Of a DNA stretch of 64,000 nucleotides, positions 3,453-47,580 are shown in pieces (position 1 is the stretch's first letter; each line of letters begins with the position of its first letter). The stretch is from the NCBI GenBank assembly GCA_022575985.1, contig JAKSXM010000132.1:7936001-8000000 (forward strand), read 5' to 3'. Position numbers and translations under genes: made by a program. This stretch comes from Anagrus nilaparvatae (Eukaryota > Arthropoda > Insecta > Hymenoptera > Mymaridae). The notes below the pieces were generated by a model. That model saw only the letters and a program-made list of their open reading frames with translations. It had not been told where the DNA came from and searched no databases.

Positions 3453-5549
3453 AGGGTTATGGAATGTGCCTTTTGTTACTTCTTGTTATTTAATAAATTC
3501 AACCATTTTACGTAATCCTGATACAAAACCAACTTATGATATTGCCGGATTAGATCCAGACATGGCATTTGCTTATTCAAATAGAGAAAAAGATAATTTT
3601 ATGTACGTTAGTAATAGATTGGATTTTGGTCATTTAGTTAATCCAGATTCGTACAATATTTCTCAAACTAATCCAGAAATGTATCAATTATTTGATAATA
3701 AAATTGACTGGGAAAATCGATATCTTCATGAAAATTATTCGAAAATTTTTGAACCTGAATACAAACTCTTACAGGTATGACGTGATAATTTTACTTAAAT
3801 TATATTTTTCAGTAATTGTTAAATTAAATTAATTTTTGTGTATTTAAATTTCAGCCATGTCCAGATGTTTATTGGTTCCCAATAGTCACTGAAAGATTCA
3901 ATAAAGAATTTGTAGAAATTATGGAAACTTTTGGTCAATGGTCTGATGGTTCTAATTACGTAAGTTATTAATTTTTTTTACATTTTTAATTAACTTTTAG
4001 TAAAAATTCAATTTACTAAAACACTTGTAAAAATTAAAAAGATTTTTTATTTTAAAAAATGGGAATTATCATTTTGAAATAAAAATCTTTGTTATTACAA
4101 ATATTTATTATTCAGGATCCTAGATTATCCGATGGCTACGAAAATGTGCCAACTCGTGATATTCACATGAGACAAGTTGGTTTAGACCAACATTGGTTAC
4201 TATTTTTAAAGGATTATGTTAGACCACTTCAAGAATTAGTCTTCATTGGATATTTTCATGATGTAAGCTAATATTTACAAAATATTAATTTTGTTTTTTT
4301 TTTTACTTTTTCATATAGGATTCAAGATTAGCAACTGGTTATGAAGCTGTACCTACTCGCGATATTCATATGAATCAAGTTAACTTTGATGATAATTGGT
4401 TAGAGTTTCTTAAATTATATGTTAATCCATTGCAGAGACTTGTATTTACTGGATATTATGATTATGTAAGAGTTAAATGATTCAAAGTAGTTCAAAATTA
4501 AATTTATTTCTTCATAAATATAGTTTTTATTTTTGGTTACTAATTGGTTTCAAATGTAAATACATAAACAGGTGTAACACCAAAAGAGATATCCATTTAA
4601 CCTTGTTAGATTCTGCACAGTTTAGGATTAAAGGTTTCTTAAAGTATTGTAGATATTAATTTTATTTGGGCAAGGTTGTACTACTTAAATTAGGGTGATC
4701 ACACCAATTAGTGATCACCAACCATTTAATAATCGATACATGTTTTTCTTTATGAAGAAGGATGATCACTAATTGGAGTTTATAGCCTACTTTTTATAAT
4801 TGATAGTCAAGAAGCCTTTATAATTTATTTTGTATTTGCTTTTTTATGGCTTTTATTATGCTAAATCAGGCAAATTTCAATAGTTTAATTATTTGTCTTT
4901 ACTTAAAATAAAAGCTATTAAAAAAAGTGAATGGGAAATACATTACTAACTTATTGACTTTATTTTCATTTGATTTTATATATTACAATTTTTTTTTATT
5001 TATTTATTTTTAATCAATTTTGTACTGCGTTCATTGAAAGAAATAAATTTAAAATTTGGTACTGATTTCATACATTATTTATATTCGCAGGCAGGCAAAA
5101 GATGTTTAATGGGTCATTCAAGTTTCATAACTTTTACAAATTTGTTGAATAAAAATAAATTAATAAAAAAATTTTAATTTAAAATCAAATGAAATAAAAT
5201 AAAAATATTAATTATTCTATAATACTAAAACCAATTATTTTAACATAAAAATTATTTTGTTTAGCCACCACGTTCTCTGATGAATTTCATCGTTAGATAC
5301 CGTCCAGATGAGCAGCCATCATTAAAACCACACCACGATAGTTCAACATACACAATAAATATTGCATTAAATAAAGTTGGAGTTGATTACGAAGGTGGAG
5401 GCTGCAGATTTATCAGATACAATTGTTCAGTAACTGATACTAAACCAGGTTGGTTATTAATGCATCCTGGTAGATTAACACATTATCACGAAGGATTAAA
5501 AGTAACAAAAGGAACAAGATATATCATGATTTCATTTGTTGATCCATAA
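3453..5549 (+). CDS. Plod: Procollagen-lysine 2-oxoglutarate 5-dioxygenase, C-terminal exons (5' part outside or undetected)
   Basis: Lysyl hydroxylase acts in the endoplasmic reticulum, hydroxylating collagen lysines with Fe(II), 2-oxoglutarate and ascorbate. Visible exons are 3453-3774, 3855-3959, then either 4116-4262 or 4319-4465, then 5265-5549 with the stop. All have GT/AG borders; the junctions after the first exon are phase 0. Family motifs occur in order: [47 protein letters not shown] and [10 protein letters not shown]. The last exon carries the dioxygenase core: [20 protein letters not shown] gives the HxD iron ligands, then [12 protein letters not shown] and an Arg in [13 protein letters not shown] for 2-oxoglutarate. 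The protein ends at ...SFVDP as in animal PLODs. The first visible exon starts in split phase, so upstream exons must exist; none was recognised in 1-3452. Identity is secure. Confidence 0.95.
4116..4262 (+). other. Plod: PLOD alternative exon A
   Basis: This 147-nt exon (49 codons, phase 0 at both ends) encodes [20 protein letters not shown] and continues to VFIGYFHD. It is preceded by TTATTCAG and followed by GTAAGC. It lines up residue for residue with exon B 56 nt downstream. Vertebrate PLODs have one such block, so normal mRNA should use A or B, not both. Confidence 0.9.
4319..4465 (+). other. Plod: PLOD alternative exon B
   Basis: Same length (147 nt) and phase as exon A. It encodes [20 protein letters not shown] and continues to VFTGYYDY. 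The acceptor is TCATATAG and the donor GTAAGA. The intervening intron is only 56 nt (4263-4318), which may hinder splicing of A directly to B. The exon keeps an open frame, so it is not an obvious relic. Confidence 0.9.
4466..5264 (+). other. PLOD last intron, 799 bp
   Basis: AT-rich intron between exon B and the final exon. I looked for a third copy of the duplicated exon and saw none. Confidence 0.7.
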
Positions 5550-7339
5550 ATTCCATAATTTTATTTCTGCAGATTTTTTTTACTTATTTTTTCACTGCCA
5601 ATAAAAAACAAAGAGAATTATAAATTTATATAATTGTGTATTTTAATATTTTAAATATGAAACTAAAAAGACTTAAATAATAACGATAATAAATAAAATT
5701 GAAATCTCATATCATGAATATTGTAAATATAAATGTAAATATTTATATAAAACAACTTAATATTAATTGTAAGAAATTTTTGTTTAAAAAAAAAAATTGT
5801 CAAAATTTTTAAAGAAAAAATTTTTTAAATTGTGAATCAAAATTTATTAGACAAAGTAGTAGAATTATAGATTATTTCTTATGTCATATGATATTAAAAA
5901 ATTAGTTTAATTGATGAAAAGAAATCTGAATTATTTTGGTTGTAGCTTTTTAAAAATGATTCAATTTTAAATGCTTATTCTGCTTAAACCTATAATTTAG
6001 GTTTCATAGAATTAAAAATCAAATTAATAAAGCAAGCATTTTTGAAATTTGCTCATTTTACTTTGAAACTTGAATCAACATAAATTCAGATTTCTACTTA
6101 GGCATCTATGTAATATCAATTAGTAAAAAAAATATAAATATTGTTAATTTGTCATCGTTGCGAATTTTCTGTGATGTACATGCATTGCTTTATTCATATA
6201 TATTACAACAAACGATAGTAATATCGGTGCTAATAAAATATAGCTCAAAATATAATTTAATTAATACTTTTATTGTTTTCAAATATAAGCATTATAAAAA
6301 CATTTTGACCTTAAAAAAAATATTTTTTAAACTGTATGTAATTTAATGTTCGATTTTTCATTTAATATCATGTGAATTACATGAAATATAAATTACAATT
6401 TTATTAATATTTAATGTTATTATGTGTTTGATATTTTTATGTAATAAAAAATTATTTAAAAAATTACAAATTTTTGTGTTTACTTATTTAACTTCATACT
6501 AATTTTTTAGGTTTATTTCAGTTATTGGTTGATAAGTCGAAAATTTTGACGGAAGTTCTTAATATTGATGGCCTACAGATTTAGAAATTATCTTGTCTGT
6601 TTTGCCAAAAACTATCGCGAATTGACTAAAAGAGTGATTCATGGATAAATATCAAGGTCTCAAAAAGTAAAAAATTTGTTTTTTTTTTCGATAAAAAAAA
6701 TAAAAAATAGATGATTCCCCGAATTTGAAGGTTTTCTATAAATTTTTAAATGTATTTATTCTGTTATAAAGTTTTTTGGTAAAACTGCTCTAATCAGGCT
6801 CTACTCAGCCTCTACTCAGGCACCATTTTTGAAAGTACCATAAAAAAGCTCAAGAAAATGTTTTTAAAAAAAAATTTACCTCAAAATTTTCCAAAATTGC
6901 ATATATATTTTAATAAAATTTAAATTTAAATTTTAAATTAAATTAAATTTTTTATAAACATTCATTTAATGGAACATATTTTTTCTTAATTAACTTATAG
7001 TTAATATGTCATGTTTTTTTTTAGCATAACAAATAACAGGTCATAAGAGGGAAAAGAGGGCTTTAAATGGATTGTCATTAAATAAATTATTAGTATATAA
7101 TTCTGAATAATTTTCTTATTTTAAATAATGATTTTTAAAAATACGACCTTTTAGTAAATTCTAATAGACGTGCCGATAATTCAGAAATCGAAAAAAAATA
7201 CCAACAAAATGGCGTATCACTATCCTAATACCTTAAAGATTTTTTTTTATAAAAGTTCAGTTTAAAGCTGCAGCTGCTAAAAATGAAAATAAGACGATTC
7301 AGGAAAAGGTAGTTAGTGATAAAGACGGATCAACTTCTG
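5550..7339. other. PLOD 3' UTR and intergenic DNA
   Basis: Several AATAAA-type signals follow the PLOD stop, for example near 5690. No coding sequence is recognised. About 6956-7165 is a dispersed repeat that recurs near 41277-41485. Confidence 0.5.
6956..7165. repeat. Dispersed repeat, copy 1
   Basis: About 210 bp beginning near ATTTAATGGAACATATTTTT and ending near ACGACCTTTTAGTAAATT recur at about 41277-41485 with small indels. The family is unknown. This copy lies about 200 bp before the promoter array. Confidence 0.6.
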
Positions 7340-10300
7340 CATCATTTTGCTAAAGCTATATAAATACTGTTGGTTGTAGTTGATATTCATTCTTACAAAA
7401 ACTTTCGTTGAGTAAACAAGCAGGTATTATATTTATTTTATTATCACTAGATGATGACTTTTTTCATCACCAGATGTTGACTTTTTCATCATTTCGCTAA
7501 AGCTATATAAATACTGTTGGTTGTAGTTTATAGTCATTCTTACAAAAACTTTCGTTGGGTAAACAAGCAGGTATTATATTTATTTTATTATCACTAGATG
7601 GTGACTTTTTTCATCACAGGATGATGACTTTTTTCATCACAGGATGATGACTTTTTTCATCACGGGATGAGACTTTTTTCATTACGGGATGATGAATTTT
7701 TTCATTACGGGATGATGACTTTTTCATCTTTTTGCTAAGGCTATATAAATACTGTCGGTTGTAGTTTATATTCATTCTTACAAGAAAGACAAACAAGCAG
7801 GTATTACATTTATTTTATTATCACCAGATAATGATTTTTTCATCAAGGGATGATGTCTTTTTCAGCATTTCGCTAAAGCTATACTAATACTGTTGGTTGT
7901 AGTTGATACTCATTGTTACAAAAACCTTCGTTGAGTAAACAAGCAGGTATTATATTTATTTTATTATCACTAGATGATGACTTTTTTCATCACAGGATGA
8001 TGACTTTTTTCATCACGGGATGACACTTTTTTCATCACGGGATGAGACTTTTTTCATTACGGGATGATGATTTTTTTCATTACGGGATGAGACTTTTTTC
8101 ATTACGGGATGATGACTTTTTTCATTACGGGATGATGACTTTTTCATCTTTTTGCTAAGGCTATATAAATACTGTTGGTTGTAGTTTATATTCATTCTTA
8201 CAAGAAAGACAAACAAGCAGGTATTGCATTTATTTTATTATCACCAGATAATGATTTTTTCATCAAGGGATGATGTCTTTTTCAGCATTTCGCTAAAGCT
8301 ATACAAATACTGTTGGTTGTAGTTGATATTCATTGTTACAAAAACCTTCGTTGAGTAAACAAGCAGGTATATATATTATATTTATTTTATTATCACTAGA
8401 TGATGACTTTTTTCATCACAGTATGATGACTTTTTTCATCACGGGATGAGACTTTTTTCATTACGGGATGATGACTTATCATCATTTCGCTAAGGCTATA
8501 TAATCACTGTCGGTTGTAGTTTATTTTCATTCTTACAAGAAAGACAAACAAGCAGGTATTACATTTATTTTATTATCACCAGATAATGATTTTTTCCTCA
8601 AGGGATGATGTCTTTTTCAGCATTTCGCTAAAGCTATACAAATACTGTTGGTTGTAGTTGATATTAATTGTTACAAAAACCTTCGTTGGGTAAACAAGCA
8701 GGTATTATATTTATTTTATTATCACTAGATGGTGACTTTTTTCATCACAGGATGATGACTTTTTTCATCACAGGATGATGACTTTTTTCATCACGGGATG
8801 AGACTTTTTTCATTACGGGATGATGAATTTTTTCATTACGGGATGATGACTTTTTCATCTTTTTGCTAAGGCTATATAAATACTGCTGGTTGTAGTTTAT
8901 ATTCATTCTTACAAGAAAGACAAACAAGCAGGTATTACATTTATTTTATTATCACCAGATAATGATTTTTTCATCAAGGGATGATGTCTTTTTCAGCATT
9001 TCACTAAAGCTATACTAATACTGTTGGTTGTAGTTGATACTCATTGTTACGAAAACCTTCGTTGAGTAAACAAGCAGGTATTATATTTATTTTATTATCA
9101 CTAGATGATGACTTTTTTCATCACAGGATGATGACTTTTTTCATCACGGGATGTCACTTTTTTCATCACGGGATGAGACTTTTTTCATTACGGGATGATG
9201 ATTTTTTTCATTACGGGATGAGACTTTTTTCATTACGGGATGATGACTTTTTTCATTACGGGATGATGACTTTTTCATCTTTTTGCTAAGGCTATATAAA
9301 TACTGTTGGTTGTAGTTTATATTCATTCTTACAAGAAAGACAAACAAGCAGGTATTATATTTATTTTATTATCACTAGATGATGACTTTTTTCATCACGG
9401 GATGAGACTTTTTTCATTACGGGATGATGAATTTTTTCATTACGGGATGATGAATTTTTTTATTACGGGATGATGACTTTTTACATTACGGGATGATGAC
9501 TTTTTCATCTTTTCGCTAAGGCTATATAAATGCTGATGGTTGTAGTTGATATTCATTTTTACAAAAACCTTCGTTGAGTAAACAAGCAGGTATTATATTT
9601 ATTTTATTATCACTAGATGATGACTTTTTTCATCACGGGATGACACTTTTTTCATCACGGGATGAGACTTTTTTCATTACGGGATGATGAATTTTTTCAT
9701 TACGGGATGATGACTTTTTTCATTACGGGATGATGAATTTTTTCATTACGGGATGATGACTTTTTACATTACGGGCTGATGACTTTTTCATCTTTTCGCT
9801 AAGGCTATATACATGCTGTTGGTTGTAGTTGATATTCATTTTTACAAAAACCTTCGTTGAGTAAACAAGCAGGTATTATATTTATTTTATTATCACTAGA
9901 TGATGACTTTTTTCATCACGGGATGAGACTTTTTTCATTACGGGATGATGAATTTTTTCATTACGGGATGATGACTTTTTTCATTACGGGATGATGACTT
10001 TTTCATCTTTTCGCTAAGGCTATATACATGCTGTTGGTTGTAGTTGATATTCATTTTTACAAAAACCTTCGTTGAGTAAACAAGCAGGTATTATATTTAT
10101 TTTATTATCACTAGATGATGACTTTTTTCATCACGGGATGAGACTTTTTTCATTACGGGATGATGAATTTTTTCATTACGGGATGATGAATTTTTTCATT
10201 ACGGGATGATGACTTTTTCATATTTTCGCTAAGACTATATAATTACTGTTGGTTGTAGTTTATACTCATTCTTACAAGAATTTTGGTTGGGTAAACTTTT

Positions 10301-11510
10301 TCATCACTAGATGATGACTTTTTTCATCACGTAACGATGACTTTTTTCATCACGGGATGATGACTTTGATGTTGACTTTTTCATCATTTCGCTAAAGCTA
10401 TATAATTACTGTTGGTTGTAGTTTATATTCATTCTTACAAAAACTTTCGCTGGGTTAACAAGCAGGTATTATATTTATTTTATTATCACTAGATGATGAC
10501 TTTTTTCATCACGGGATGATGACTTTGATGTTGACTTTTTTCATGATGGCTTTTTCATTACGGGATGATGACTTTTTCATCATTTCGCAAAAGCTATATA
10601 ATTTCTGTCGGTTGTAGTTTATATTCATTCTTACAAGAACTTTCGTTGTGTAAACAAGCAGGTATTACAATTATTTTGTATATCATCTTATATTATAATA
10701 TTTCTTCTTCAAAACTTTTTGATCTTTGGATGATGAATTTTCGATTATATAATTACTGTCGGTTGTAGTTTATTTTCATTCTTACAAGAAAGACAAAGCA
10801 GGTATTATATTTATTTTATTATCATCAGATAATGATTTTTTCATCAAGGGATGATGACTTTTTCTTCATTTTGCTGAAGCTATATAATTACTGTCGGTTG
10901 TAGTTTATATTCATGTAATTATGACTTTCTTATAGCGGGATTATATATTATGGATCAAGAAATGATGGCTTTTTCATTACGGGATGATGACTCTTTCATC
11001 ATTTGGCTAAAGCTATATAATTACTGTTGGTTGTAGTTTATATTCATTCTTACAAGAACTTTGGTTGGGTAAACTTTTTCATCACTAGATGATGACTTTT
11101 TTCATCACGAAATGATGACTTTTTTCATCACTGGATGATGACTTTGATGTTCACTTTTTTCATCACCAGATGTTGACTTTTTCATCATTTCGCTAAAGCT
11201 ATATAAACACTGTTGGTTGTAGTTTATAGTCATTCTTACAAAAACTTTCGTTGGGTAAACAAGCAGGTATTATATTTATTTTATTATCACTAGATGATGA
11301 CTTTTTTCATAAAGGGATGAGACTTTTTTCATTACGGGATGATGACTTTTTTCATTACGGGATGATGACTTTTTCATCTTTTCGCTAAGGCTATATAAAT
11401 ACTGTTGGTTGTAGTTTATATTCATTCTTACAAAAACTTTTGTTGGGTAAACAAGCAGGTATTGCATTTATTTTATTATCACTAGATAATGACTTTCATC
11501 ATTTGATGAT
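7340..11510 (+). repeat. 4.2-kb complex tandem array of promoter-like units
   Basis: The array alternates a conserved promoter/leader module with clusters of a short repeat of about 23 bp, consensus near TTTTTTCATTACGGGATGATGA. The core GATGACTTTTTTCATC is an imperfect palindrome and occurs dozens of times. Between about 7.35 and 9.35 kb, units with a 35-nt leader alternate with units whose leader is 27 nt, forming a dimeric higher-order repeat. From 9.5 kb on, nearly all units are the 35-nt type. Reading frames on either strand here merely follow the repeat period and are not counted as genes. Confidence 0.9.
7357..11461 (+). promoter_or_regulatory. 22 tandem TATA-initiator-leader-splice-donor modules
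   Basis: Each module reads TATATAAATACTG (or a TATAAT/TATACA variant), then GGTTGTAGTT and a TCATTC-like initiator. TATA-type boxes start at 7359, 7506, 7744, 7882, 8164, 8302, 8499, 8637, 8875, 9013, 9295, 9535, 9808, 10023, 10238, 10401, 10597, 10748, 10883, 11016, 11202 and 11394. The initiator A lies 30 nt downstream, matching a metazoan TATA at -30 with TCA(+1)KTY. In 19 modules the leader then runs 35 nt (27 nt in the short type, 24 nt at 10748) to AAGCAG|GTATT, a good 5' splice site. Modules at 10238, 10883 and 11016 lack the donor. A remnant lies at 11517-11550. The leader contains no ATG. The last complete module splices plausibly to the acceptor at 11569-11570 or 11578-11579, giving an intron of about 111-120 nt. 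Function is inferred from layout. Confidence 0.7.
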
Positions 11511-12670
11511 TACTTTTTGAATATAGTTTATATTCATTCTTAGTTATATAACATCATTGTATGTTTTTAGCAATTTCAGCGATTAATGATGTCATTTATG
11601 AGCGCAGACGAAATTTTAGAAATTGAGGATGGATCGTACACATCTGATGATATTGATATATTAAATGGAATTATTTCTGAATATTGTTGTTATTTGGTTT
11701 GTAAAAGATTAACTTATTTTACTTTCCTGAAATTATATTAAATTAATTTTATTTCAGAATGTATTTAACAACCTAGATGCAAAATTTGAAATGTTTAGTA
11801 AAATATCTGATATTAATATTAAATCATTTATTGACTGGGATTCTTTTATTTTACTGAGCCGTAATTTAAAACCTTTCATTAAAGATTATAATGTAAGAGA
11901 CCTGGAAGATTTAAAGGATGTTAATAATTTTCTTCTAAACATTAATTATGATGGTACGTTTAAATTTAAGTTATAATACTGATTAATCATTACATTTAAA
12001 ATTATTTTTTTGTATTATTTATTAATATATCATATTATTTATTAATATATCAAAATTTTATGTTGCACTTATCTTTTATTTTTAGACTTAAATAAATACA
12101 TTGTTAAATTACCATTTTTGAGAAACAGTACCTATACCTTATATATGTTAATTAAGAATGCACAAGATATTATTGACGGTGACAAATTTCTTGGATTTTT
12201 GTAAGTATTATTTAATAATTTTTAAAAATTGTTTGAATTGTTTTAAAAAATTTTATTTATTTTAGATTGATATTAGAAAGCTTAGTATCTAAAACTTGCA
12301 ATCAAATAAATTTAACGAGTTTTACGTCATTTGTTATAAATTTTCAAGCTACTATGGATATCAGTAACTATTTTAAGTTTATAAAATATTTCAGCGAGAA
12401 TATGGATTTTGGTGATTTCTCATCTTCGATTCAATTCAGGTATAAAAAAATAATGTTTAAAATTTCGAATTTAATTATAATAATGCTTATAATGAATTTT
12501 TATAAATTTTATAGTTTACAAATGAATTCTAGAAATATTTCTATAAATAGTGACACATCGTGTTTAAATAAAATTTGTAACTTAGAGCACAAAGATATTG
12601 TATCAGTAAATTTTGATCATATTATCAGGATTTCGTCTACGTCTCCAGGTGAAGGAATTGATATTGATTT

Positions 12671-13869
12671 TGAGATGGTCACTACCCACTCCTATAATTA
12701 TTTAATTTAATTTTATGTAAATTTTGTAAATAATAAACCATTCCCATTTATGTACCTAGCCCTAGCTTAACTTATTCAAAAACGTGTAACATACTCTTAG
12801 GGGCACTTACGTAATAGTTAACTCAATGACATTTTTTAATTTAATTTAATGATTAATTAATAATAATCAATTGAATTTGTATATAATAATTTGATTTAGA
12901 GTTTTTTCATTCATATTTTATAATTTTTGGTTATTAAAAATATTTTGTTTTGTTAATCACAAGCTCCAAACTTTTCGTATAATTTCGTCTTTACCGACAA
13001 CTATAATATAATATCTATCGCGCTCTTTCTATCTTATGTAAATCATGGGGCGAAAAGGGTATAAATAGCGTGAACTAAATACATAAAGCAAGCATTCGTG
13101 CATTATACACTGTATTGTGTAGAAGGTCCAAAAGGTCCTGGTGAACATCCTCTCAACGAGTGTAAGTTAAAAAGGTATAAATTTTTCTTTTCTTTTTTTA
13201 TTACTATAACGCGATCCCCCTACGTGATGCCGCTATTCCACGTTTAAGGGAAGAAAACATTTAATTATTCACGAGATCCCCCTACGTGATGCCGTTAATT
13301 CCACGTCTAAGGGAAGATATTATAATTCCTCATGTGAGATTCATATACCGCATGAGAGTACGTGTCTAGGTGATGCTTTACCACCTGAATGTATATAATC
13401 GCGTATTTATAGTTGTGAGCTTTAATTAAAACCATTCGCTGAAACGTCATTTTTATCAAGCGCGGGTAAACGGCTGAAATCTCCTTAAGAGGCTGTCGTT
13501 CATTTTTATAAAAAGCGCGGGTAAACGGACGTGTCCCTTTTTAAATATTATTTATTAAATATTTATTTTACGCGGGTAAACGGCGGTGCATAAATAGTTG
13601 TATATGTGAGTTTCCTTATGTAAAATATTTATAATTATTGTTATATTCTATTAGTACACATACTTTATAACTTAATTATATTAAATTATTCGCAACGTTA
13701 TTAAATCCTGTATATATTTTTGATATTAATAAAATTAATCAATATTTTTGTTTATTCTCTTGTATAAACCATTGAGTTGTTATTTACAAACCTTATCCTG
13801 GTATCCTATATTTTTATAATATAAGTAAAAGAACCTGTGGTCTACCACCCCCTGGGTGTGACCATTACA
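12671..13869 (+). repeat. 5' LTR (1,199 bp)
   Basis: Contains a TATA box in GGGTATAAATAGCG near 13060. A direct repeat built on GATCCCCCTACGTGATGCCG occurs twice near 13211 and 13276. CGCGGGTAAACGG occurs three times (about 13462, 13517 and 13571). AATAAAATTAAT near 13728 is a possible poly(A) signal. These fit an LTR with an upstream promoter and downstream R/U5. Confidence 0.9.
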
Positions 13870-13978
13870 TTGGTGCCGAAACCCGGATACCAGGAAGGGA
13901 AAATAACCTTAAATTCTTTGATTTTAATTTCGTAAACTCATTTTTAATCTCGTTTATTTTTTAAAATCACGTACTAAC

Positions 13979-14305
13979 ATGGCGTATGATGATATGAGGT
14001 TAAATCTCAATTCCTCTTTTATAAGAGACGATCGAATTAATGCAGACCATTGTAAAGTAGTGGCAGACTTTCTAAACACATTATTGGAAACTCGCATAAG
14101 TGATTTCCCTAATGGTAGTTTTCTTCAAGATACCGTAGATACATTGCCCATTGAAGCAATGAATAAAAATCTAAAAAATGGTAGTGCTGGTAGAAGCTTT
14201 TCCTCCAGACTAATTTTAACTACTCGACAAGTAAATACTATCGAGCATGCTGGAGCCGTAACTCAAACTAACATGCTTGGTGAGGAATCTAACTTAAAAC
14301 ACTAG
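13979..14305 (+). CDS. Small ORF inside the LTR element, 108 aa
   Basis: The ATG follows the primer site by about 90 nt, where gag would start. The product begins MAYDDMRLNLNSSF. I see no zinc knuckle, protease or other named motif. It may be a truncated gag start or an unrelated leader ORF. Confidence 0.4.
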   Translation: MAYDDMRLNLNSSFIRDDRINADHCKVVADFLNTLLETRISDFPNGSFLQDTVDTLPIEAMNKNLKNGSAGRSFSSRLILTTRQVNTIEHAGAVTQTNMLGEESNLKH

Positions 14306-15817
14306 ATGGCATGACCAAATATGCCTTGGGAAATGATGAATTCCCATAAATTCATCAAACATAAAACTTAGAAAATAAATTAAAATATTTTTTTTTTAAA
14401 CAAAAAATCTAATCAAATAAATACGATGATACAATACATAAAAAAGATTTAAAGTGAATTTTATTTAAAATTTAAGATGCTGATTATTAAAGTTATAATA
14501 CAACTACATAAAATATATTGAAACTCTTTGTTAATAAATCTTAAAACTTCAAATAAAAAATTAAAATAAAAATACAAATAAATATTAAACGAAAATCTTC
14601 AAGAAGAAAGTGATCTAAAATAAATATTATGAAAAATTAAATAAAAACATTGCGAAAACTAAAAAAACGGGATAATCATTCAATATTCTTTTCTTTACTC
14701 AAAAAAGTGTTTACATTCGGTGAGGGTACAGCTTTCGCTGAGTTCCAAACTACCACAGTAGGTCTCGTAACCGAATAAGGGCGTGATAACCAACAAACTG
14801 TAGGAAAAGAGTTTGACTCACTCCAAATGGCAACAAGAAGATTTGCTTCATTTTGTGAGAGATCCTGTATATACCTCTGAAGCCGAAAAATGTTAAACCA
14901 GAAAAAGGTATTAAACAGAAATTGATGAAATACCCAAATAAGTACTTTCACAATAATAAAATTAATTCTAATAATATAAAAATGATCCAATTTTAATTGA
15001 AATTTTCAAGATAAATAAACTAAAATAATCAACATAATACTCAAGAATTATTACAAAGTTAACCAAACAATTTAAAATAAACTTAAAACATAAAAAAACT
15101 TCAAGAATTACAGCAATTAAATTTACAATAAAAATATCTAAAATCATTAAAATGAAATATAAAATGATACTCATCAAAAATTTTATTTAAAATAAAAAAA
15201 GTTTTTTTGGAATCTGTAAAAATAAAGATTCGTACTACAAGAAAATAAATCAATTAAAATATTCCAAAAACAAGATAAATAATACTACAGAAAATTTCAT
15301 AATTTCGATAGCTGACTTCAAGATCTACTGGTTCCTGTTTATCAAGATCCTGTGTTCAAAGTGAAAAGTGCTAAGTGTTAAAAAGTGTTTAGTAATAAAA
15401 ATAAAAAAAAAGTGATTTCTGATAAAAAAATTTATAGTGTGATAAAATAGTGTTTAGAATTTAAGATTTTTCATTATTTTGTTACAATATATTTAAGTCC
15501 TTATTTTTAGGTAATAATATTGAAAAAGACTTTAAAAAAGACTCATTATTAAAAAATTGTAAATACCAAATAATTTGAAATTAAAATTTTTTTTTTATAT
15601 ATACTATGTTATATCTAAATTAAATGTAAAAAGTTTTAGTTAATAATTTTTTTTATTTTAGGAAAATAATTTAAAAAGTGATAAAGTGAACACTAAAAGA
15701 CTAATTTATATTTAAGAAAGAGATACAAGTTTCTAGACTATTAAATTAAATAATTTTTTATAATTTTTTAAAAGTTAAAAAAATGTAATTTTTTATTTTC
15801 AAAAAAGTGGGGGGCTA
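14306..15817. other. LTR element interior without recognisable genes
   Basis: AT-rich sequence with no pol motif on either strand. It ends in the polypurine tract at about 15801-15814. Confidence 0.6.
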
Positions 15818-17016
15818 TGAGATGGTCACTACCCACTCCTATAATTATTTAATTTAATTTTATGTAAATTTTGTAAATAATAAACCATTCCCATTTATGT
15901 ACCTAGCCCTAGCTTAACTTATTCAAAAACGTGTAACATACTCTTAGGGGCACTTACGTAATAGTTAACTCAATGACATTTTTTAATTTAATTTAATGAT
16001 TAATTAATAATAATCAATTGAATTTGTATATAATAATTTGATTTAGAGTTTTTTCATTCATATTTTATAATTTTTGGTTATTAAAAATATTTTGTTTTGT
16101 TAATCACAAGCTCCAAACTTTTCGTATAATTTCGTCTTTACCGACAACTATAATATAATATCTATCGCGCTCTTTCTATCTTATGTAAATCATGGGGCGA
16201 AAAGGGTATAAATAGCGTGAACTAAATACATAAAGCAAGCATTCGTGCATTATACACTGTATTGTGTAGAAGGTCCAAAAGGTCCTGGTGAACATCCTCT
16301 CAACGAGTGTAAGTTAAAAAGGTATAAATTTTTCTTTTCTTTTTTTATTACTATAACGCGATCCCCCTACGTGATGCCGCTATTCCACGTTTAAGGGAAG
16401 AAAACATTTAATTATTCACGAGATCCCCCTACGTGATGCCGTTAATTCCACGTCTAAGGGAAGATATTATAATTCCTCATGTGAGATTCATATACCGCAT
16501 GAGAGTACGTGTCTAGGTGATGCTTTACCACCTGAATGTATATAATCGCGTATTTATAGTTGTGAGCTTTAATTAAAACCATTCGCTGAAACGTCATTTT
16601 TATCAAGCGCGGGTAAACGGCTGAAATCTCCTTAAGAGGCTGTCGTTCATTTTTATAAAAAGCGCGGGTAAACGGACGTGTCCCTTTTTAAATATTATTT
16701 ATTAAATATTTATTTTACGCGGGTAAACGGCGGTGCATAAATAGTTGTATATGTGAGTTTCCTTATGTAAAATATTTATAATTATTGTTATATTCTATTA
16801 GTACACATACTTTATAACTTAATTATATTAAATTATTCGCAACGTTATTAAATCCTGTATATATTTTTGATATTAATAAAATTAATCAATATTTTTGTTT
16901 ATTCTCTTGTATAAACCATTGAGTTGTTATTTACAAACCTTATCCTGGTATCCTATATTTTTATAATATAAGTAAAAGAACCTGTGGTCTACCACCCCCT
17001 GGGTGTGACCATTACA
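15818..17016 (+). repeat. 3' LTR (1,199 bp)
   Basis: Read side by side with the 5' LTR, I found no difference over its length. It ends ACCATTACA at 17016, after which the host gene sequence resumes. Confidence 0.9.
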
Positions 17017-18323
17017 TTTAAACGTGTTGAAAAATTTAAAAATTAAGGGTCTAAAACTTGACAAAATAGCTTATTCTGTAAGTTATCATTAACATATTTT
17101 GTATCTAGATTAAATGCAAAAAAATTGAATAAATTTTTTATTTTAATAGGATAATGTTTTTACTACTCCATTAGATAATTACATTTTAAATAATTTCTCT
17201 GTTTTATTGTATAAGTTACTTAATATAAATGATTTGAAAAAAAATTTGTATGCTGTTTCGAATGCAGTTAAAAACTATGAATACATTACAATAAATTCAA
17301 GAAAACATTACATTAATTTTTTTTAAAACTATTATAAAGTCGATATTAAATTTCCAGTTGAATTATTCAATGATGATAAATTTAATTTAGTTTTGGAGTT
17401 TCAACATTATTCTTAAAACTCAAATATTATAAAAGAAGGTAAATTTTTTTATGGATTCATTTTATTTAATTATTAAATAATTATTTATTTTAATTCTAGC
17501 TGTAGCCAATTGTTTGTTTAAAAATAATTCTATAAGGCGTTTTGTAAATTTAAAAAGTTTTATGCATCAAATATATTCATTATTAATAGAAGATCTAAAT
17601 TCTGAGGAAATGGGGATTTTCAGCAAAGAAGGCTTACATAATTTTTTTTTAAAGAATACTTTATAACTTTATGGCTTTTAAAATGCAAGTTTGGAAGATT
17701 TAGTAATCGAAAAGGAGTAATTCAAGAAATAAAATTTAAAAGAGATATGTTGTATCCCATGAAGTACTTCAAGCATTTACCAAAGAAAATAATTCCAGTT
17801 TTTAAAAGTTTTCTTAATTTGAACGGACTGATTTCTTTAATAACTGACAATTCACATATTACGGCTACAGAAGAGTCCGTAAGTTATTTTATTATTTTTT
17901 TTTTTTTCATTATTAATCTTATAATAATTAATTTTTTAGGCAAACATTTTATTGACAACGTATAGAGTATTAATACGAGAGCATTTATATGCTGATGTTA
18001 AAAAAAAATTAAAGATTAAAAAACATTGTTGCATTCACAAAATTATCAAGAGACACGACATTTCTCTACAGAGAAACAGATTTGTTAAAATAGTAGGCGA
18101 AAAAAAATATTCAGAGTTGCTTCAAGTATTATTTAAACCAGTTTCGTTAATAGGTTATTTATTAAACAATCAAGTAGGATTTGTAAAAAGTTCATCTACG
18201 TATACTCAAAAATATTCAATATTAAAAGAAACTTGCAAAAATGTAATAGTATTTCCGAAGTACTTTTTTCAATCTGACAATTTTATAATTAAATTTGATG
18301 AATGGTACAATATTGTGCCCTAA

Positions 18324-19103
18324 TTAACAAATCGTAAAACAATGTCAACTCTTTTTGTTGTTTAAAAAGAGTTCATAAAACTAAAAAAGTTAACTTTTCT
18401 ATTTATTGATAGAATTGTACATTAATAATAATCAATTTATCTGAAATATTATATTTAACACTTTAATTATTCATTGTAATCTACATGAATTATTAATTTA
18501 ATATACAATAAATCTTTTATATCTATTGTAATTGTAATCAGTAAATAATTTTTGTTAATTTCTAAATTCTGTTTTTTATATATAGCAAAATATAAAATAG
18601 AGTTTATTACTAAACAAGTAGGATTTGTCAAAAGTTCAACTACGGATATTTAATATTAAAAAATTCTTGACAACAGGGTTGTCTAACGTACGCTATCGAA
18701 ATTTTTTGATATTCTGAAAATATATAAAAAAATATTCGACACGTATTTTTTTTTAATTATTAATTTTATATATTTTTTATTTACATTAAAATTGTTATAA
18801 ACAAATTTATTTAAATATTTCTTGAATATCCTTACCTATCCTACTGTATGAATGCGTGAGTGAAAGGTGGCCCATAAGTTCTAGTTTGTATTTATTCTTA
18901 TTGGATCTTTTGAAACGTAAACAAGTACGTATTGGATATATAACTTGATCTTTCGTTACTTTTAATCACTACTTATGATCATCTGTGTTGCTCACCACTT
19001 TTATTCACCATTTTTGATCATCACTTTTGATCATCACTTTTGATCATAACTTTTGATCATCACTTTTGATCATCACTTTTGATCATCACTTTCGTCGTGT
19101 TTA
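18324..19103. other. Decayed relatives of the unknown gene and its leader
   Basis: About 18598-18670 resembles the last exon (compare 18163-18240; shared AAGTAGGATTTGT and AAAAGTTCA). About 18878-18940 resembles the array's leader module, keeping TTTATTCTTA and GTAAACAAGTACGTATT. Together they suggest the locus was once a tandem gene family of which only fragments remain. Confidence 0.4.
18995..19091. repeat. Minisatellite with unit ATCACTTTTGATC
   Basis: About seven tandem copies of a 13-bp unit whose core TTTTGATCATCAC is close to the ATGATGACTTTTTTCATCAC motif of the 7-11 kb array. It lies just after the leader-like relic, so the two together may be the remains of another promoter region. 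Confidence 0.6.
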
Positions 19104-27829: not shown

Positions 27830-30187
27830 ATCTACAAATATAATTAATTTTCGGTTAAGTTAGGTTAGAAATTTAGAGTAAAAACCATATTTTCAGATCT
27901 TAATACTTTTATAGAAATAAATTAGGTACTACATTCAAAAAGAAAAAATGTTGCTATTAATTTTATTTCTTTAGGCAAAAAATTGTAAAAAAAAATTTTT
28001 TTAAACATTACAAATCAGATCCAAAATTTGACTATAAACGGGTTATGCTAAGCTAGATTAAGTTAGGTTGAAATTAATTTTTTTTTAGGTTGAGTTTAAT
28101 ATATACTTGAAGATTAATCAGATATTGTAATCAAATTTAGAAACTTAATTTTTATATTTTCTCAGCATACTTTAGTAAATTATTATAAAAGAAAGTTGGT
28201 AACAGTTTTAATGTTCAAAAATCTTCAGCAAAGGATCTTGTTATAGTAAAAAATAAATAAATTAGGTACTACATTCAAAAAGAAAAAATATTGCTATTAG
28301 GTAATTTTATTTTTTTAGGTAAAAAATGTTGAAAAAAAATATTTTCAAAAATTAAGTTTTAGATCCAAAAAATTGACTATAAAATATATTTCTAAAACTA
28401 GTACTCCAACAGAAAAAAATGAGGTACTACTTTCAAAAAGGAAAAAATATCGATGTTTTTTTTATTTTCTTAGGCAAGGTTGGATTGGGTTAGGTTGGGG
28501 TGGGTTGGGTTAGGTTAGGTTAGGTTGGGTTGGGTTGGGTTCGGTTGGTTGGGTTGGGTTGGGTTGGGTTGGGCTAGGTTGGGTTGAGTTCGGTTGGGTT
28601 GGGTTGAGTTGGGTTAGGTTCGGTTGGGTTAGGTTTGGTTGGGTTGGGTTGGGTTGGGTTGGGTTGGGCTAGGTTGGGTTGGGTTGGGTTCTATTCGTTT
28701 AGGTTAGGTTAGAAATTTAGAGTAAAAACCATATTTTCAGATCTTAATACTTTTATAGAAATAAATTAGGTACTAAATTCAAAAAGAAAAAATGTTGCTA
28801 TTAACATTTTTAAAAATTAAGTTTCAGATCCAAAAAATTGATTATAAAAGATATTTCTAAAACTAGTACTCCAACAGAAAAAAATGAGGTACTACTTTCA
28901 AACAGGAAAAAATATCGATGTTTTTTTTTATTTTCTTATGCAAGGTTGGATTGGGTTGGGTTGGGTTGGGTTGGGTTGGGTTGGGTTGGGTTGGGTTGAG
29001 TTCGGTTAGGTTGGGTTGGGTTGGGTTGGGTTCGGTTGGGTTGGGTTGGGCTAGGTTGGGTTGAGTTCGGTTAGGTTGGGTTGGGTTAGGTTGGGGTGGG
29101 TTGGGTTGGGTTCGGTTGGGTTGGGTTAGGTTAGGTTAGGTTGGGTTGGGTTAGGTTAGGTTGGTTTGGGTTGGGTTAGGTTCGGTTAGGTTGGGTTGGG
29201 TTAGGTTGGGGTGGGTTGGGTTGGGTTCGGTTGGGTTGGGTTAGGTTAGGTTGGGTTGGGTTGGGTTCGGTTGGTTGGGTTGGGTTGGGTTGGGTTGGGC
29301 TAGGTTGGGTTGAGTTCGGTTGGGTTGGGTTGGGTTGGGTTGGGTTAGGTTTGGTTGGGTTGGGTTGGGTTGGGTTGGGTTGGGTTGGGTTGGGCTAGGT
29401 TGGGTTGGGTTGGGTTCTATTCGTTTAGGTTAGGTTAGAAATTTAGAGTAAAAACCATATTTTCAGATCTTAATACTTTTATAGAAATAAATTAGGTACT
29501 AAATTCAAAAAGAAAAAATGTTGCTATTAACATTTTTAAAAATTAAGTTTCAGATCCAAAAAATTGATTATAAAAGATATTTCTAAAACTAGTACTCCAA
29601 CAGAAAAAAATGAGGTACTACTTTCAAACAGGAAAAAATATCGATGTTTTTTTTATTTTCTTATGCAAGGTTGGATTGGGTTGGGTTGGGTTCGGTTGGG
29701 TTCGGTTGGGTTGGGTTGGGTTGGGTTGGGTTGGGTTGGGTTGAGTTCGGTTAGGTTGGGTTGGGTTGGGTTGGGTTGGGTTGGGTTCGGTTGGGTTGGG
29801 TTGGGCTAGGTTGGGTTGAGTTCGGTTAGGTTGGGTTGGGTTAGGTTGGGGTGGTTTGGGTTGGGTTGGGTTGGGTTGGGTTAGGTTAGGTTAGGTTGGG
29901 TTAGGTTAGGTTGGGTTGGGTTAGGTTCGGTTGGGTTGGGTTAGGTTGGGTTGGGTTGGGTTGGGTTGGGTTGGGTTGGGTTGGGCTAGGTTGGGTTGGG
30001 TTGGGTTGGGTTGGGTAGGTTTGGGCTAGGTTGGGTTCTATTCGTTTAGGTTAGGTTAGAAATTTAGAGTAAAAACCATATTTTCAGATCTTAATACTTT
30101 TATAGAAATAAATTAGGTACTACATTCAAAAAGAATAAATGTTGCTATTAATTTTATTTTTTTAGGTAATAAATTTTGAAAAGTAAT

Positions 30188-30572
30188 TATTTTTTTTTTT
30201 TTTTTTTTTTTTTTTTATGAATTTATCGTTCGAATTGATGAATTTTCGAACGAAATTTTTATCTCAAATAAAAAATTTTTTCTGCTTTTTTTAAGATCAG
30301 CAGTTCAATCTAACATCTTTCTATAAATTAAAAATTTAATTTCTTGAAAATTAAAATTTTTAAAAAAATTAATATTTGATATAATGATTTGAAAAAATCG
30401 TTAACTAAATACTACATGTTAGGTTTAATAAAAAAAAGATACGATTAATTCGTACACCTATCAGTGTTGAGTTAAATAAATCAAAAATTGATTTCATTTG
30501 TTCGGTTAATCATCGTTAAAGCCTTAAAATTAATTAATTTCATCAATTCGAACGATAAATTCATAAAAAAAA

Positions 30573-30606
<34 letters not shown>

Positions 30607-31046
30607 ATTATAAATTCAGCTTGGATGCGTAACAGCTGTATTTGAGATAACAAAGCGTTCCTGGAGGCTGAGAATCTGCGGTCCCCCTGGTAGTCTAGTT
30701 GGTTAAAACACCAGTGTACAGAACTGGAGATCGTGGGTTCAAATCCCTCCCAGGGCCCGTTTTTTTATCTCAAATAAAAAATTTTTTCTGCTTTTTTTAA
30801 GATCAGCAGTTCAATCTAACATCTTTCTATAAATTAAAAATTTAATTTCTTGAAAATTAAAATTTTTAAAAAAATTAATATTTGATATAATGATTTGAAA
30901 AAATCGTTAACTAAATACTACATGTTAGGTTTAATAAAAAAAAGATACGATTAATTCGTACACCTATCAGTGTTGAGTTAAATAAATCAAAAATTGATTT
31001 CATTTGTTCGGTTAATCATCGTTAAAGCCTTAAAATTAATTAATTT
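30188..31046. mobile_element. SINE-type insertion with repeated tail and poly(T)/poly(A) runs
   Basis: Flanked by TTGAAAAGTAAT on both sides (about 30174-30185 and 31045-31056), a likely target duplication. A 280-bp block beginning ATCTCAAATAAAAAATTTTT occurs twice in direct order (about 30261 and 30763). The first copy is framed by inverted TCATCAATTCGAACGATAAA and its complement next to long T and A runs. A tRNA-like sequence precedes the second block. Looks like two nested insertions of one SINE. Confidence 0.65.
30684..30756 (+). ncRNA. tRNA-like head of a SINE
   Basis: A 73-nt cloverleaf-like sequence: acceptor CCCCTGG with CCAGGGC (6 of 7 pairs), anticodon arm CCAGT-GTACAGA-ACTGG with U33 and apparent anticodon ACA, T arm GTGGG-TTCAAAT-CCCTC with one mismatch. 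The D stem is poor. A T-run follows. The tail matches the SINE at 38.1 kb, so I read it as tRNA-derived repeat rather than a working tRNA. Confidence 0.6.
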
Positions 31047-31378
31047 GAAAAGTAATATTTTTAAAAATTAAGGTTTAGATCCAAAAAATTGATTATAAAA
31101 GATATTTCTAAAACTAGTACTCCCACAGAAAAAAATGCGGTACTACTTTCAAAAAGTAAAAAATATCTTAGAAAATATCAATTTTCTTAGGCAATAAATT
31201 TAAAAAAAAAATTTTTTTAAACATTACAAATCAGATAAAAAATTTGACTATAAACGGGTTATGCTAAGCTAGATTAAGTTAGGTTGAAATTAATTTTTTT
31301 TTAGGTTGAATTAGGTTTGGTTGTGTTGGGTTTGGTTGGGTTGGGCTAGGTTGGGTTAGGTTAGATTGGGTTAGGTTG

Positions 31379-44507: not shown

Positions 44508-44615
44508 TAAAAAAAAAAAAAACCAACGTTACGCGGTGTTCCCAAGCGGTCACCCATCCAAGTACTAACCGCGCTCAACTTTGCTTAACTTCTGGGATCG
44601 GACGAGACCAGGTAC
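44508..44615 (-). rRNA. Truncated 5S rRNA gene fragment at a retrotransposon junction
   Basis: On the minus strand the sequence from 44615 reads GGTCTCGTCCGATCCCAGAA, AAGTTGAGCGCGGTTAGTAC, TTGGATGGGTGACCGCTTGG and GAACACCGCG to GTTGG, then a T-run like a Pol III terminator. This is the last ~95 nt of 5S rRNA; the first ~25 nt are missing. The missing side abuts the poly(A) of the retrotransposon at 44616. Not a working gene. Confidence 0.9.
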
Positions 44616-46590
44616 TTTTTTTTTTTTTTTTTTTTTATATAAAAGTTTATTGAAGCCTTCTATGAAAAATACAAAAAAATTATTACAATAAATGAAAATA
44701 ATTCACAATAAACAAAAAGAATATTACAATATCAGTTGATTAAAGTTTAAAGTCTGTTCACTACGCAGAATCACATAAACATACAATCTTGCCTATTATA
44801 AATAATATAGAATTAAAACATTATACAATTTTTTTCTTTTTTGGTAAACATAATATAATAATTATTTTTAACATTTTCGTGTATAATAATTCATCAGAAA
44901 ACAGGCTGAAAAAAAAAAACTGATGATAAACTTGCACTTTTATACTTATACGCCATAAAATAATAGGATTAAAATAAATAAAGAGAAAAATAGGCGGAGA
45001 TGTTAATAAAGTATTTACAAAAATTATTTACAATATAGTACAAAGGGAAGTAATAAAATAATTTGATTTTTAATTATATACGGAGGATGTATATATTATT
45101 TTTCAAGTGGTTTCATATGTTTCTAATATATGAGCATATGATTACTTTTCTTTTACATTATGAACATAGACACACAGGGACTTGTGTGTCTATGATTACA
45201 AAATATAAAATTTTTTTTACTTTTTAGAAAATTCTGTTTTATGTCGTCGCATGAAGGAGAGAGACAGAGATAAATATGAATAATTCTCACGCTATTTACC
45301 TACTCTCTTCTTCATGCGACGACAATTTATTTTTATGTTATTCTAGCCAGAAATATTTATTTTTATTTTTTCTGTGATTATCTTTTCTATCCTTATTAGA
45401 CAAGGACATATTAAAGATCCAAAGGGGGTTTGGATCTTTTGAGTTAAGATTAGGGTCATATAAAAATTTTCTTTTTGTAGCGTTTTTCCTACTAATGTGA
45501 TAAATTATAGGGACATTATTAGAATCTTGGATAAAATTTTTTTTATCCAAGTAAGGAAAAGCTTCGGGAGGAACGTAACCTGTTTTACAGGTATTTTCAA
45601 AATACAGTGGGTTTGGGTAAATAATGCTTGATATTAATGAATTATCGGTTACTGTGTGTATTTGACTAAAATGATTTCTTATGAGTTTTAAAATGAAGCA
45701 ATCTATTCGGTGAATGTTTGCTTCATTGTATAATTTTTTATTGCTGATAAAGTGCCGGAATTCTGTTTCTGGGGATCTATATTTTCCCAGGCAAGCTCTA
45801 ATGCATTTCCTTTCAAAAACCCTTATTTTTTCCATTTGAGAAGCTGAAATATTATACCAGATTGGGCAACCATATGTTATAATGGGTCGAATAAATGTTT
45901 GATAGCATAAAATTTTTGTTCTTTTAGTTAGATACTTTGAGTAAAATACCCTTTTTAGTTTCATAAAAGCATTCTTAGCTTTTTGCAGTTGAATAACTAT
46001 ATGTCTGTTAAATAGGAGGCGGTCATCGATATTAATTCCTAAGTATTTGACAGTATTTTTATGAGGGATGATTTGACCTTCATTTTTTTTTTCACGGATT
46101 TGAAAATTTTTGACGTATCTTCTACTTACTCCAATTTCAGATAAGGGGGGGCGGAATAATATTGTTTCGCACTTACTTGCGTTTATTTTTAGTTTCCAAG
46201 AATGAAAATAAAATTGGATTTTTTCAAAAAGTTCTTGGAGATTATCTATAATAGTTTTTGCTTTAGAGTGGGTAATGTATATTATCAAATCGTCGGCAAA
46301 TGCTATTGAGCGTTTAAATAGGGAAGTATTTTGATCGAAAAGACGCAATATTTCAGCGACATAGATATTGAATAGAATTGGTGAATTAACTGTACCTTGT
46401 TGAAGGCCATTTAAGATTTTAAATTCTTTGCTTGAAGAATGGGATCCATTAGAGGTATAAAAAATTTTGTTAGAAATCATGTTCCAAATAATTTTTACTA
46501 AATGTTTGGGAAAACCCTTTTTTAATAATTTATATATTAGACCTTCTGTCCAAACGGTATCAAAGGTACATTCAAAGTGATATGAACGTT
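44616..46590 (-). mobile_element. Non-LTR retrotransposon, 5'-truncated, joined to 5S rRNA
   Basis: On the minus strand it ends in a poly(A) run (T's at 44616-44637). The 3' part is about 700 bp with a hairpin at about 45242-45325 (GTCGTCGCATGAAGGAGAG against CTCTTCTTCATGCGACGAC). The coding part is listed separately. The 5' half is missing beyond about 46590. The join to 5S rRNA may be the insertion target. Confidence 0.85.
45338..46590 (-). pseudogene. Reverse transcriptase, C-terminal two thirds
   Basis: The ATG-started frame (46480-45338, 380 aa) is open, and the same frame continues upstream as FDTVWTEGLIYKLLKKGFPK to about 46590, so the ATG is internal. Motifs in order: GLQQGTVNSPILFNIY, the catalytic FADDLIIY (Asp-Asp), KCETILFRPP, then VKYLGINIDDRLLFNRHI, as in Jockey/I-group non-LTR elements. 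It ends NKYFWLE. The reverse transcriptase N-terminus and the endonuclease are missing, so it is inactive although this part is open. Copy 1 at 19.1 kb is far more decayed. Confidence 0.88.
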
Positions 46591-47580
46591 GGACAAAAGT
46601 GAATATTTAAAAGATATACTGGTTGTAATTGCCTTTAACAATTAGTTGATTAAAATTTTAACAGCCTTTTTAAAAATTTTTTTAAGTTAAAACGATTGGG
46701 TTGCCCCTTTCCGAGATTTTTTGAGTAACTGCGTAAGAAATGTGACGACCAACATTCAAATTTTAGCTTTGACCTGTCTTACCTTGTGACATAATCATCA
46801 CATAACAAAATATTTATATCAAAATATTTATTTAAATGCGGTTTCAAAAATTTGTTATTACACATTTTGTAGTTACGCCAATTATTTTCCCACAATTTCA
46901 AAAAAACGGAAAATTTGCTTTTTTCAAAAAAACATTTTTGAGCTTTTTCGAAGCCATTGCTCGAAAAATACGTGATCTAGAGCTTTTCAATTTTTTAAGC
47001 GTCATAAGGTATATTTATTTAAACTTTCCGTGAAGAATTTTTTTTTTTGCTTCTATCCCTTTGCAAACTCTAGCCACCCTTTAGAAAATGGACAAAAAAA
47101 GAATCAATGGTTTTTTGCCTGTTATGCCTATATATTTTTTGTACCAAACTTTTACAAATAATCGTATTTTCATAATAATATTATACTGAAATTATGTCTG
47201 ATTGTTTTTTTTTTGTTTACAGTTAACAGTTTGCAAAAAGACTCAATTTCGACTCATCAATTTTTGCTGCGATACACTTTATACCGTTTTTATTAGTCTT
47301 AAAGAAATTAAAAAAAAAAAACGACTCGATTTGTAAAATTATAATACTCAAAATTTGTTATTACAACTTTTTTTCACAAAATAAAGAATTTTAAAAATTT
47401 TAATCTTTGATTGCTATATTTTTTCGGAAAATATAAATAAAAGAGGATAGTATTAAAAAAAAAAAAAATCTACGATTATGTATGCTTAAAAACCTTAAAT
47501 TCTATAGGTTTCAAATTGGTATGCTGCAAAATACGTTTTTTTTTTTTTTAATTTCGTAAAACGCGGAGTCCCAATTTTTT
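46591..47580. other. Duplicated non-coding spacer, copy 2
   Basis: Corresponds to about 19930-21000. No gene seen. Frames at 46836 and 20313 are the same chance ORF in both copies. Confidence 0.6.

Follow-up and report, generated by a model that had tools for sequence, protein, structure and literature searches.

In the assembly of the mymarid wasp Anagrus nilaparvatae (GCA_022575985.1; 488.7 Mb in 393 contigs), a stretch of 64,000 nucleotides on contig C113 (JAKSXM010000132.1, positions 7936001-8000000), hereafter the window, carries a tandem array of short modules that are built like core promoters with an adjoining first exon, and behind them lies a multi-exon gene, gene 1 (exon 2 at 11571 or 11580 through 18322). 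A unit scan of the window finds 22 modules at 7340-11490, every one on the + strand. The distance from the TATA box to the A of the initiator (Inr) is constant in 22/22, the first T of TATATA lying at -32 and an overlapping box at -30. A first-pass annotation had proposed 22 tandem units, each with a TATA box at -30 and an initiator, and its count and spacing hold, while the "each" does not, as TATAWA is intact in 18/22 modules (the remaining four read TATAC) and TCATTY is found in 17/22. It had also described ATG-free leaders of 24-35 nt with a 5' splice site (donor) in 19 units and, behind the last unit, a splice acceptor with an ATG-bearing exon, and this is borne out: the CAG|GTA donor is present in 19/22, the leaders have 35 nt in 13 units, 27 nt in five and 24 nt in one, with ATG in none, and the final donor at 11459 is followed by acceptors that give exon starts 11571 and 11580, ahead of the ATG at 11586. 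TATAWA, TCATTY and donor occur together in 15/22 modules, and 17/19 leader donors score inside the range of 11 real donors (3.0-9.0).

The unit finder required the block GGTTGTAGTT (-17..-8), which is invariant in the 22 units of the window but variable in related arrays on contigs C182 and C292; a rescan that allowed 3 mismatches added only a 3-mismatch relic at 11519 within the array. On its + strand the array has 17 instances of TATAWA lying 28-32 nt before TCAKTY, and on its - strand none; the 119.4 kb of strand outside it have four. The 17 matches are not independent, as the units are copies of one another. AATAAA or ATTAAA does not occur on the + strand of the array, where about 3 are expected (P 0.033 and 0.060 in two computations), nor on that of the array at C62:72.25M (expected 3.8, P 0.020), and the result is not significant at 4 other regions. 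The spacers hold 0-4 copies of a 23-bp partly palindromic GATGATGACTTTTTTCATCACGG-like repeat (counted with one strict pattern), and large blocks are duplicated (7333-8282 versus 8474-9413, 94.7% over 952 bp), a pattern as expected from unequal exchange. That all units are internal cassette exons has been rejected, GGTTGTAG scoring -2.1 to -9.2 as an acceptor versus 4.9 to 10.7 for 12 real acceptors. In the four TATAC units the initiator is also altered, and an acceptor-like TCTTTTTCAG that scores 5.4 is found 46 nt upstream of the A; these four modules may be internal untranslated exons instead of promoters. The exon starts given by TCTTTTTCAG are 7866, 8286, 8621 and 8997; splicing to each of them from the donor of the 27-nt-leader module before it would remove an intron of 65 nt.

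The earlier description of the array as feeding one gene is too narrow, since such arrays are a feature of a gene family. A genome search with the last exon gives 8 places, window included: gene 2, the copy at C113:8.027M, which is open in all nine exons matched, its counterparts on C182 and C292, further copies with exon 2 at C62:72.25M, C157:10.176M and C104, and a 3' fragment only at C62:9.568M. A tandem module array lies upstream of 8/8 copies in which exon 2 was read, i.e. those of the window, C113:8.027M, C182, C292, C62:72.25M, C157 and C104 and a further one at C62:65.59M (6 loci if the gene-2 counterparts are counted once). Searched with TATA-side seeds (<=3 mismatches), the loci hold 11 modules on C113, 14 on C182, 7 on C292, 28 on C62, 6 on C104 and 10 on C157, the donor not being present in all of them, and further complete modules of the window-like type number 5 on C157 and 1 on C62. 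In a generic scan from TATA to donor, each of six copies has 3-11 modules within the 4.5 kb upstream of it, versus 6 in 104.6 kb of window strand elsewhere; the scan scores 0 in the window array, where the donor lies 4 nt further on. The acceptor AG-N7-AG precedes the start codon in 7/7 copies, and in the eighth by reading; both AGs, which give the exon starts 11571 and 11580, recur in the paralogs, and the donor varies in form yet stays usable (CAG|GTATT in the window, CAA|GTACGT or CAA|GTAAGT elsewhere). The hallmarks of alternative promoters, at least two promoters with a first exon and donor (15/22 modules with all elements) and a shared downstream acceptor exon (7/7 copies), are thus present at the level of sequence. 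The ratio of nonsynonymous to synonymous substitution rates is 0.35-0.50 in 6 gene pairs, and the family genes are under net purifying selection.

The modules come in two types. Type 1 is window-like. Type 2 has the form TATAAAT..AG.TGCATA..., and its complete modules place the donor 63 nt behind TATA. Both share TATA, TCATT and donor at the same spacing and are otherwise only about 35% identical. When ungapped consensuses from four loci per type are compared and agreement is taken as 7 of 8 consensuses or better, 16/18 columns of TATA, Inr and donor agree versus 14/62 other columns (Fisher 5e-7; between-type identity 0.86 versus 0.35). Identity is 0.459 in register 0 versus at most 0.368 for shifts of 1-5, and the observed value is attained by just one of 80 circular label shifts, the true one. 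The sample comprised, for type 1, 13/22 modules of the window, 13/16 of C104, 5 of C157 and 1 of C62, and for type 2, 10/28 of C62, 7/11 of C113, 5/6 of C104 and 2/10 of C157.

Searches of the genome with the modules themselves lead mostly back to the same loci. The type-2 core (<=3 mismatches) gives 74 matches (2 with a reversed control), of which 62 are at known loci, 7 at C62:65.5917-65.5928M and 5 elsewhere. This new array was found by its modules alone, and directly behind it lies a copy of the gene (exons e2-e5, with one stop in e4, then truncated). A type-1 core of the C104/C157 kind gives 32 matches (reversed control 0), 27 of them at family loci or at the C182 counterpart of the window locus and 5 elsewhere, and the 53 matches of a window-like core are confined to the window array (21), C182 (18) and C292 (14). 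The first-pass annotation had held that modules lying equally in satellite DNA far from genes would speak against promoters; 69/74 type-2 and 27/32 type-1 matches are at family loci or the C182 counterpart, and 10 are elsewhere, two of them beside a telomere. The C62:65.59M copy is followed downstream by five type-1 modules, behind which stands a different gene with several exons. This sister gene resembles the family weakly (E 0.001 when a single sequence was compared, with 36% over 22 residues), and on C104 it is present again, with 74-95% in most stretches and 49% in one. At the two loci with close forms of this gene (C62:65.59M, C104), type-1 arrays stand ahead of it. Among the matches listed are also four distant relatives of it with long open frames (C62:64148433, C113:2317809, C317:12778343, C62:64997797), the frame being 535 aa at C62:64148433 and 486 aa as read at C317:12778343; two of the relatives were tested against Pfam and gave no match. 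Both module types match near the start of contig C175 (3787-5847), and this stretch (3.8-5.8 kb) may hold a gene copy.

The spliced frame of gene 1 is open from exon 2 to e6, where it runs into a long terminal repeat (LTR) element whose two LTRs are identical over 1,201 bp; it entered this coding exon very recently. An open reading frame (ORF) of 108 aa within the element (13980-14306) has no match in Pfam. In a protein database that does contain hymenopteran proteins, a search that requires shared 5-residue words scored 742 and 7994 candidates, none of them a homolog at E <= 10, so gene 1 looks like an orphan. Pfam gives only matches below the cut-off (best E 0.0087, 16.4 bits versus 24.7), a PDB search gave one chance match at E 2 and, for a distant relative, none at E <= 1, and viral or prokaryote contigs yielded no homolog, as is to be expected for an insect gene. 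The predicted folds, with mean confidence (pLDDT) of 43 and 37, are of no use.

The anatomy of the modules recurs across loci and is linked to the genes, and with this comparative evidence a core-promoter-plus-first-exon function of the modules is likely. The reading we favour, at a probability of roughly 0.6, is that the modules are tandem alternative promoters for RNA polymerase II, each with an untranslated first exon, which unequal exchange has multiplied and which are probably passive in part. The earlier proposal of alternative promoters with interchangeable untranslated first exons gains strong comparative support (8/8 copies, fixed spacing of TATA, Inr and donor, conserved acceptor). 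Transcription start, splicing and any dose effect, as we infer them, would take the following course. At a working module, the general machinery would bind the TATA box 32 nt (in the overlapping register 30 nt) upstream of the TCATT initiator and start an RNA with an ATG-free leader of 24-35 nt, the 5' splice site of which would be joined to the common acceptor of exon 2 (11571 or 11580), with everything between removed. Unequal exchange would gain and delete modules, so that the number of promoters shifts quickly and some modules are dead. One design, in two diverged module types, stands ahead of members of an orphan gene family and of a diverged sister gene. It is a more tentative idea, possible rather than probable, that the whole family uses self-expanding arrays of 6 to about 30 modules per copy, alike within a locus and diverged between loci, in which gain and loss of modules tunes transcription of the orphan proteins faster than point mutation could, even between haplotypes.

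Several observations weigh against tandem promoters. In the window, 7/22 modules lack one or more of TATA, Inr and donor, and 2/19 donors score 1.8, below the real ones; one of these belongs to the module nearest the gene, which has all elements with a weak donor. The columns of the named functional elements do vary less than others in the window array (0.40 versus 1.15 parsimony steps per column), but the permutation test fades from p 0.0025 with 22 units to 0.016 when two diverged ones are dropped and to 0.066 when six more are dropped, and while the donor columns are the least variable (p 0.006, 0.013 and 0.031 for 22, 20 and 14 units), those of TATA and Inr by themselves show no significant reduction in variability (p 0.09, 0.22, 0.41). 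The reduced variability thus rests on the donor, and the window alone cannot prove function. The comparison between types took modules of the common spacing only; the choice of columns was made once the data had been inspected, although it matches the elements named in the first-pass annotation. At C62:72.25M (72253000-72259200), the donor of 18/28 type-2 modules follows TATA at 32 nt, which leaves them neither initiator nor leader, 5 of these 18 have also lost the GT, and decayed modules have been amplified along with intact ones. At C113:8.028M, 3/7 gene-proximal modules are without donor GT, the nearest included, and the gene-nearest type-2 module lacks it also on C182, C292 and C104. Gene 1 itself is broken in this assembly, as its frame picks up again after the LTR element and then meets two in-frame stops and a frameshift. 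There are also arrays without a gene: C182 (19 units) and C292 (15, split by about 16 kb) are, because their flanks are alike (C182 96-98% to those of the window array, C182 with C292 up to 99%), evidently other haplotypes or duplicates of the window locus, and both carry the array without gene 1. The full units among their 34 (two are partial) keep TATAWA in 26/32, TCATTY in 27/32 and CAG|GTA in 22/32, much like the window. At C317:31899001-31902430, a long terminal (TTAGG)n telomere is bordered on its inner side by three type-1 modules and about two that resemble type 2, and the 3.4 kb read there match neither gene family. "Feeding" a gene is therefore too strong a word at this locus, where the gene is broken by the LTR element and stops, modules are incomplete and arrays occur without the gene. 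Given the decayed or donor-less modules and the gene-less arrays, part of every array may be passive.

Such passivity could go further: only one or two modules per array might be real promoters, and the rest a promoter-derived minisatellite, spread by unequal exchange and without output of its own. The near-identical blocks of the window array, the joint amplification of decayed and intact modules at C62:72.25M and the about equal intactness of arrays without an adjacent gene all fit this view, which we nevertheless regard as unlikely, because arrays are found at each family locus read and have kept spacing and donor from two module types, and because the gene-nearest type-2 modules without GT donor at C113:8.028M, C182, C292 and C104 would leave it to more distal ones to serve. 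That the array is mainly an enhancer, with the 23-bp (elsewhere 13-bp) GATGA...TCATC or GATCATC repeats as factor sites and the core promoters incidental, is improbable: the array does hold 34 ATGA[CA]TTTTTTCAT cores versus none in the other 59.7 kb of the window, and GATCATC-type repeats lie between modules at C157, C104 and C62, but the spacer at C113:8.028M is a different, TTGACCAGATTTAG-like one, and the kept donor and the spacing of TATA, Inr and donor would be left unexplained.

A repeat that is subtelomeric or mobile, has promoter activity and hitchhikes with genes would account for the modules inside the C317 telomere, which have no match to the gene families beside them in the stretch read, and for single matches near the contig ends of C157 and C175. 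It is very improbable, however, as only 5/74 type-2 and 5/32 type-1 matches are away from family loci, one of these places being the C175 stretch with its possible gene copy, and the loci of the window and of C157:10.17M lie deep inside their contigs. Least credible of all are tandem small-RNA genes such as those for spliced-leader RNA, arrays of which likewise consist of tandem units with a short leader and a donor. Here, too, the short leader ends in a donor, and a small hairpin follows it in 4/4 units folded, but the leader is not uniform, varying in length (24, 27, 35 nt) and sequence between units, no curated RNA family is matched (in the array, Rfam gives only sub-threshold matches with E 0.4-4.4 and none at gathering scores), the folding z is -2.6 to 0.3, and the units stand upstream of an acceptor exon, ahead of gene copies; spliced-leader genes are thus disfavoured.

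Among known systems, clustered alternative first exons as in protocadherin and UGT1A genes also join many promoters with first exons of their own to one downstream exon set; those first exons are coding and diverse, whereas here they are untranslated, 24-35 nt long and near-identical within an array. With the spacer promoters of ribosomal DNA (rDNA), too, a promoter is present in several copies ahead of that of the gene, but they use RNA polymerase I and have no splice donor, unlike the TATA/Inr and splicing signals found here. Comparable in layout are the promoter monomers in the 5' untranslated region of mouse L1, which are tandem units of variable number upstream of a coding unit, with a second monomer raising activity (PMC9022269, PMC6454616). 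The units described here vary in number as well (22 in the window, 19 on C182, 15 on C292). The L1 monomers belong to a retrotransposon, whereas the present units stand ahead of genes with several exons and mostly terminate in a splice donor; what lies downstream is not the ORFs of a long interspersed nuclear element (LINE), but a multi-exon gene without Pfam match above the cut-off. A comparable array at a host gene was not found in the available passages of the open-licence PubMed Central literature.

Table 1. Array, gene 1 and associated features in the window. Module coordinates run from TATA to the end of the leader; A+1 is the predicted start A; all lie on the + strand.
Feature	Position	Strand	Remarks
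Whole type-1 promoter/first-exon array (putative), 22 modules	7340-11520	+	
Module 1	7357-7423	+	A+1 7389; leader 35 nt
Module 2	7504-7570	+	A+1 7536
Module 3	7742-7800	+	A+1 7774; leader 27 nt
Module 4	7880-7946	+	A+1 7912; TATAC, Inr changed; acceptor-like site, exon start 7866
Module 5	8162-8220	+	A+1 8194; leader 27 nt
Module 6	8300-8366	+	A+1 8332; TATAC, Inr changed
Module 7	8497-8555	+	A+1 8529; leader 27 nt
Module 8	8635-8701	+	A+1 8667; TATAC, Inr changed
Module 9	8873-8931	+	A+1 8905; leader 27 nt
Module 10	9011-9077	+	A+1 9043; TATAC, Inr changed
Module 11	9293-9351	+	A+1 9325; leader 27 nt
Module 12	9523-9589	+	A+1 9555
Module 13	9806-9872	+	A+1 9838
Module 14	10021-10087	+	A+1 10053
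Module 15	10236-10274	+	A+1 10268; no donor
Module 16	10399-10465	+	A+1 10431
Module 17	10595-10661	+	A+1 10627
Module 18	10746-10801	+	A+1 10778; leader 24 nt
Module 19	10881-10919	+	A+1 10913; Inr changed, no donor
Module 20	11014-11052	+	A+1 11046; no donor
Module 21	11200-11266	+	A+1 11232
Module 22, nearest gene	11392-11458	+	A+1 11424; donor score low (1.8)
Exon 2	11571-11696	+	start 11571 or 11580; ATG at 11586
Coding exons e3-e6	11758-12670	+	e3 11758-11953, e4 12086-12200, e5 12266-12439, e6 12515-12670
LTR retroelement within coding exon	12671-17018	+	LTRs 12671-13871 and 15818-17018; ends uncertain by a few bases
Gene 1, remainder	17019-18322	+	17019-17077, 17150-17438 (two in-frame TAA), 17500-17878 (frameshift), 17940-18322
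Possible relic of a last-exon copy	18603-18644	+	E 0.66, suggestive only
Decayed type-1 module downstream of gene 1	18878-18944	+	E 3e-4; then 13-bp repeats 18958-19092

The window is AT-rich and contains, besides the array and gene 1, an odorant-receptor domain above the Pfam cut-off. At 4116-4465, two similar tandem exons, DPRLSDGYENVPTRDIHM... and DSRLATGYEAVPTRDIHM..., which may be mutually exclusive, lie in a gene with a last exon matching the 2OG-Fe(II) oxygenase family, presumably a PLOD-like gene. Interstitial TTGGG/TTAGG-like arrays at 28478-31378 are repeated several times with shared flanks, and Rfam matches above gathering scores are a 5S ribosomal RNA (44521-44650, -) and a transfer RNA (30684-30757, +). 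A Jockey-like LINE reverse transcriptase ORF of 422 aa is found at 45338-46606 (-), and its named relatives, among 120 of 226 matches listed, are mostly from Hymenoptera, bees included.

If many of the modules fire, promoter copy number would be a heritable and rapidly mutable dial for ordinary multi-exon genes, something that is known mainly from retrotransposons and rDNA. The two module types form a natural alignment: little apart from TATA, initiator and donor has survived, so that the requirements of a core promoter with its first exon may be read from it. Counterpart loci carry 22, 19 and 15 modules, gene 1 being absent from those with 19 and 15, and gene 2 is open in every matched exon, so that tests of such a dose effect would be possible in this wasp.

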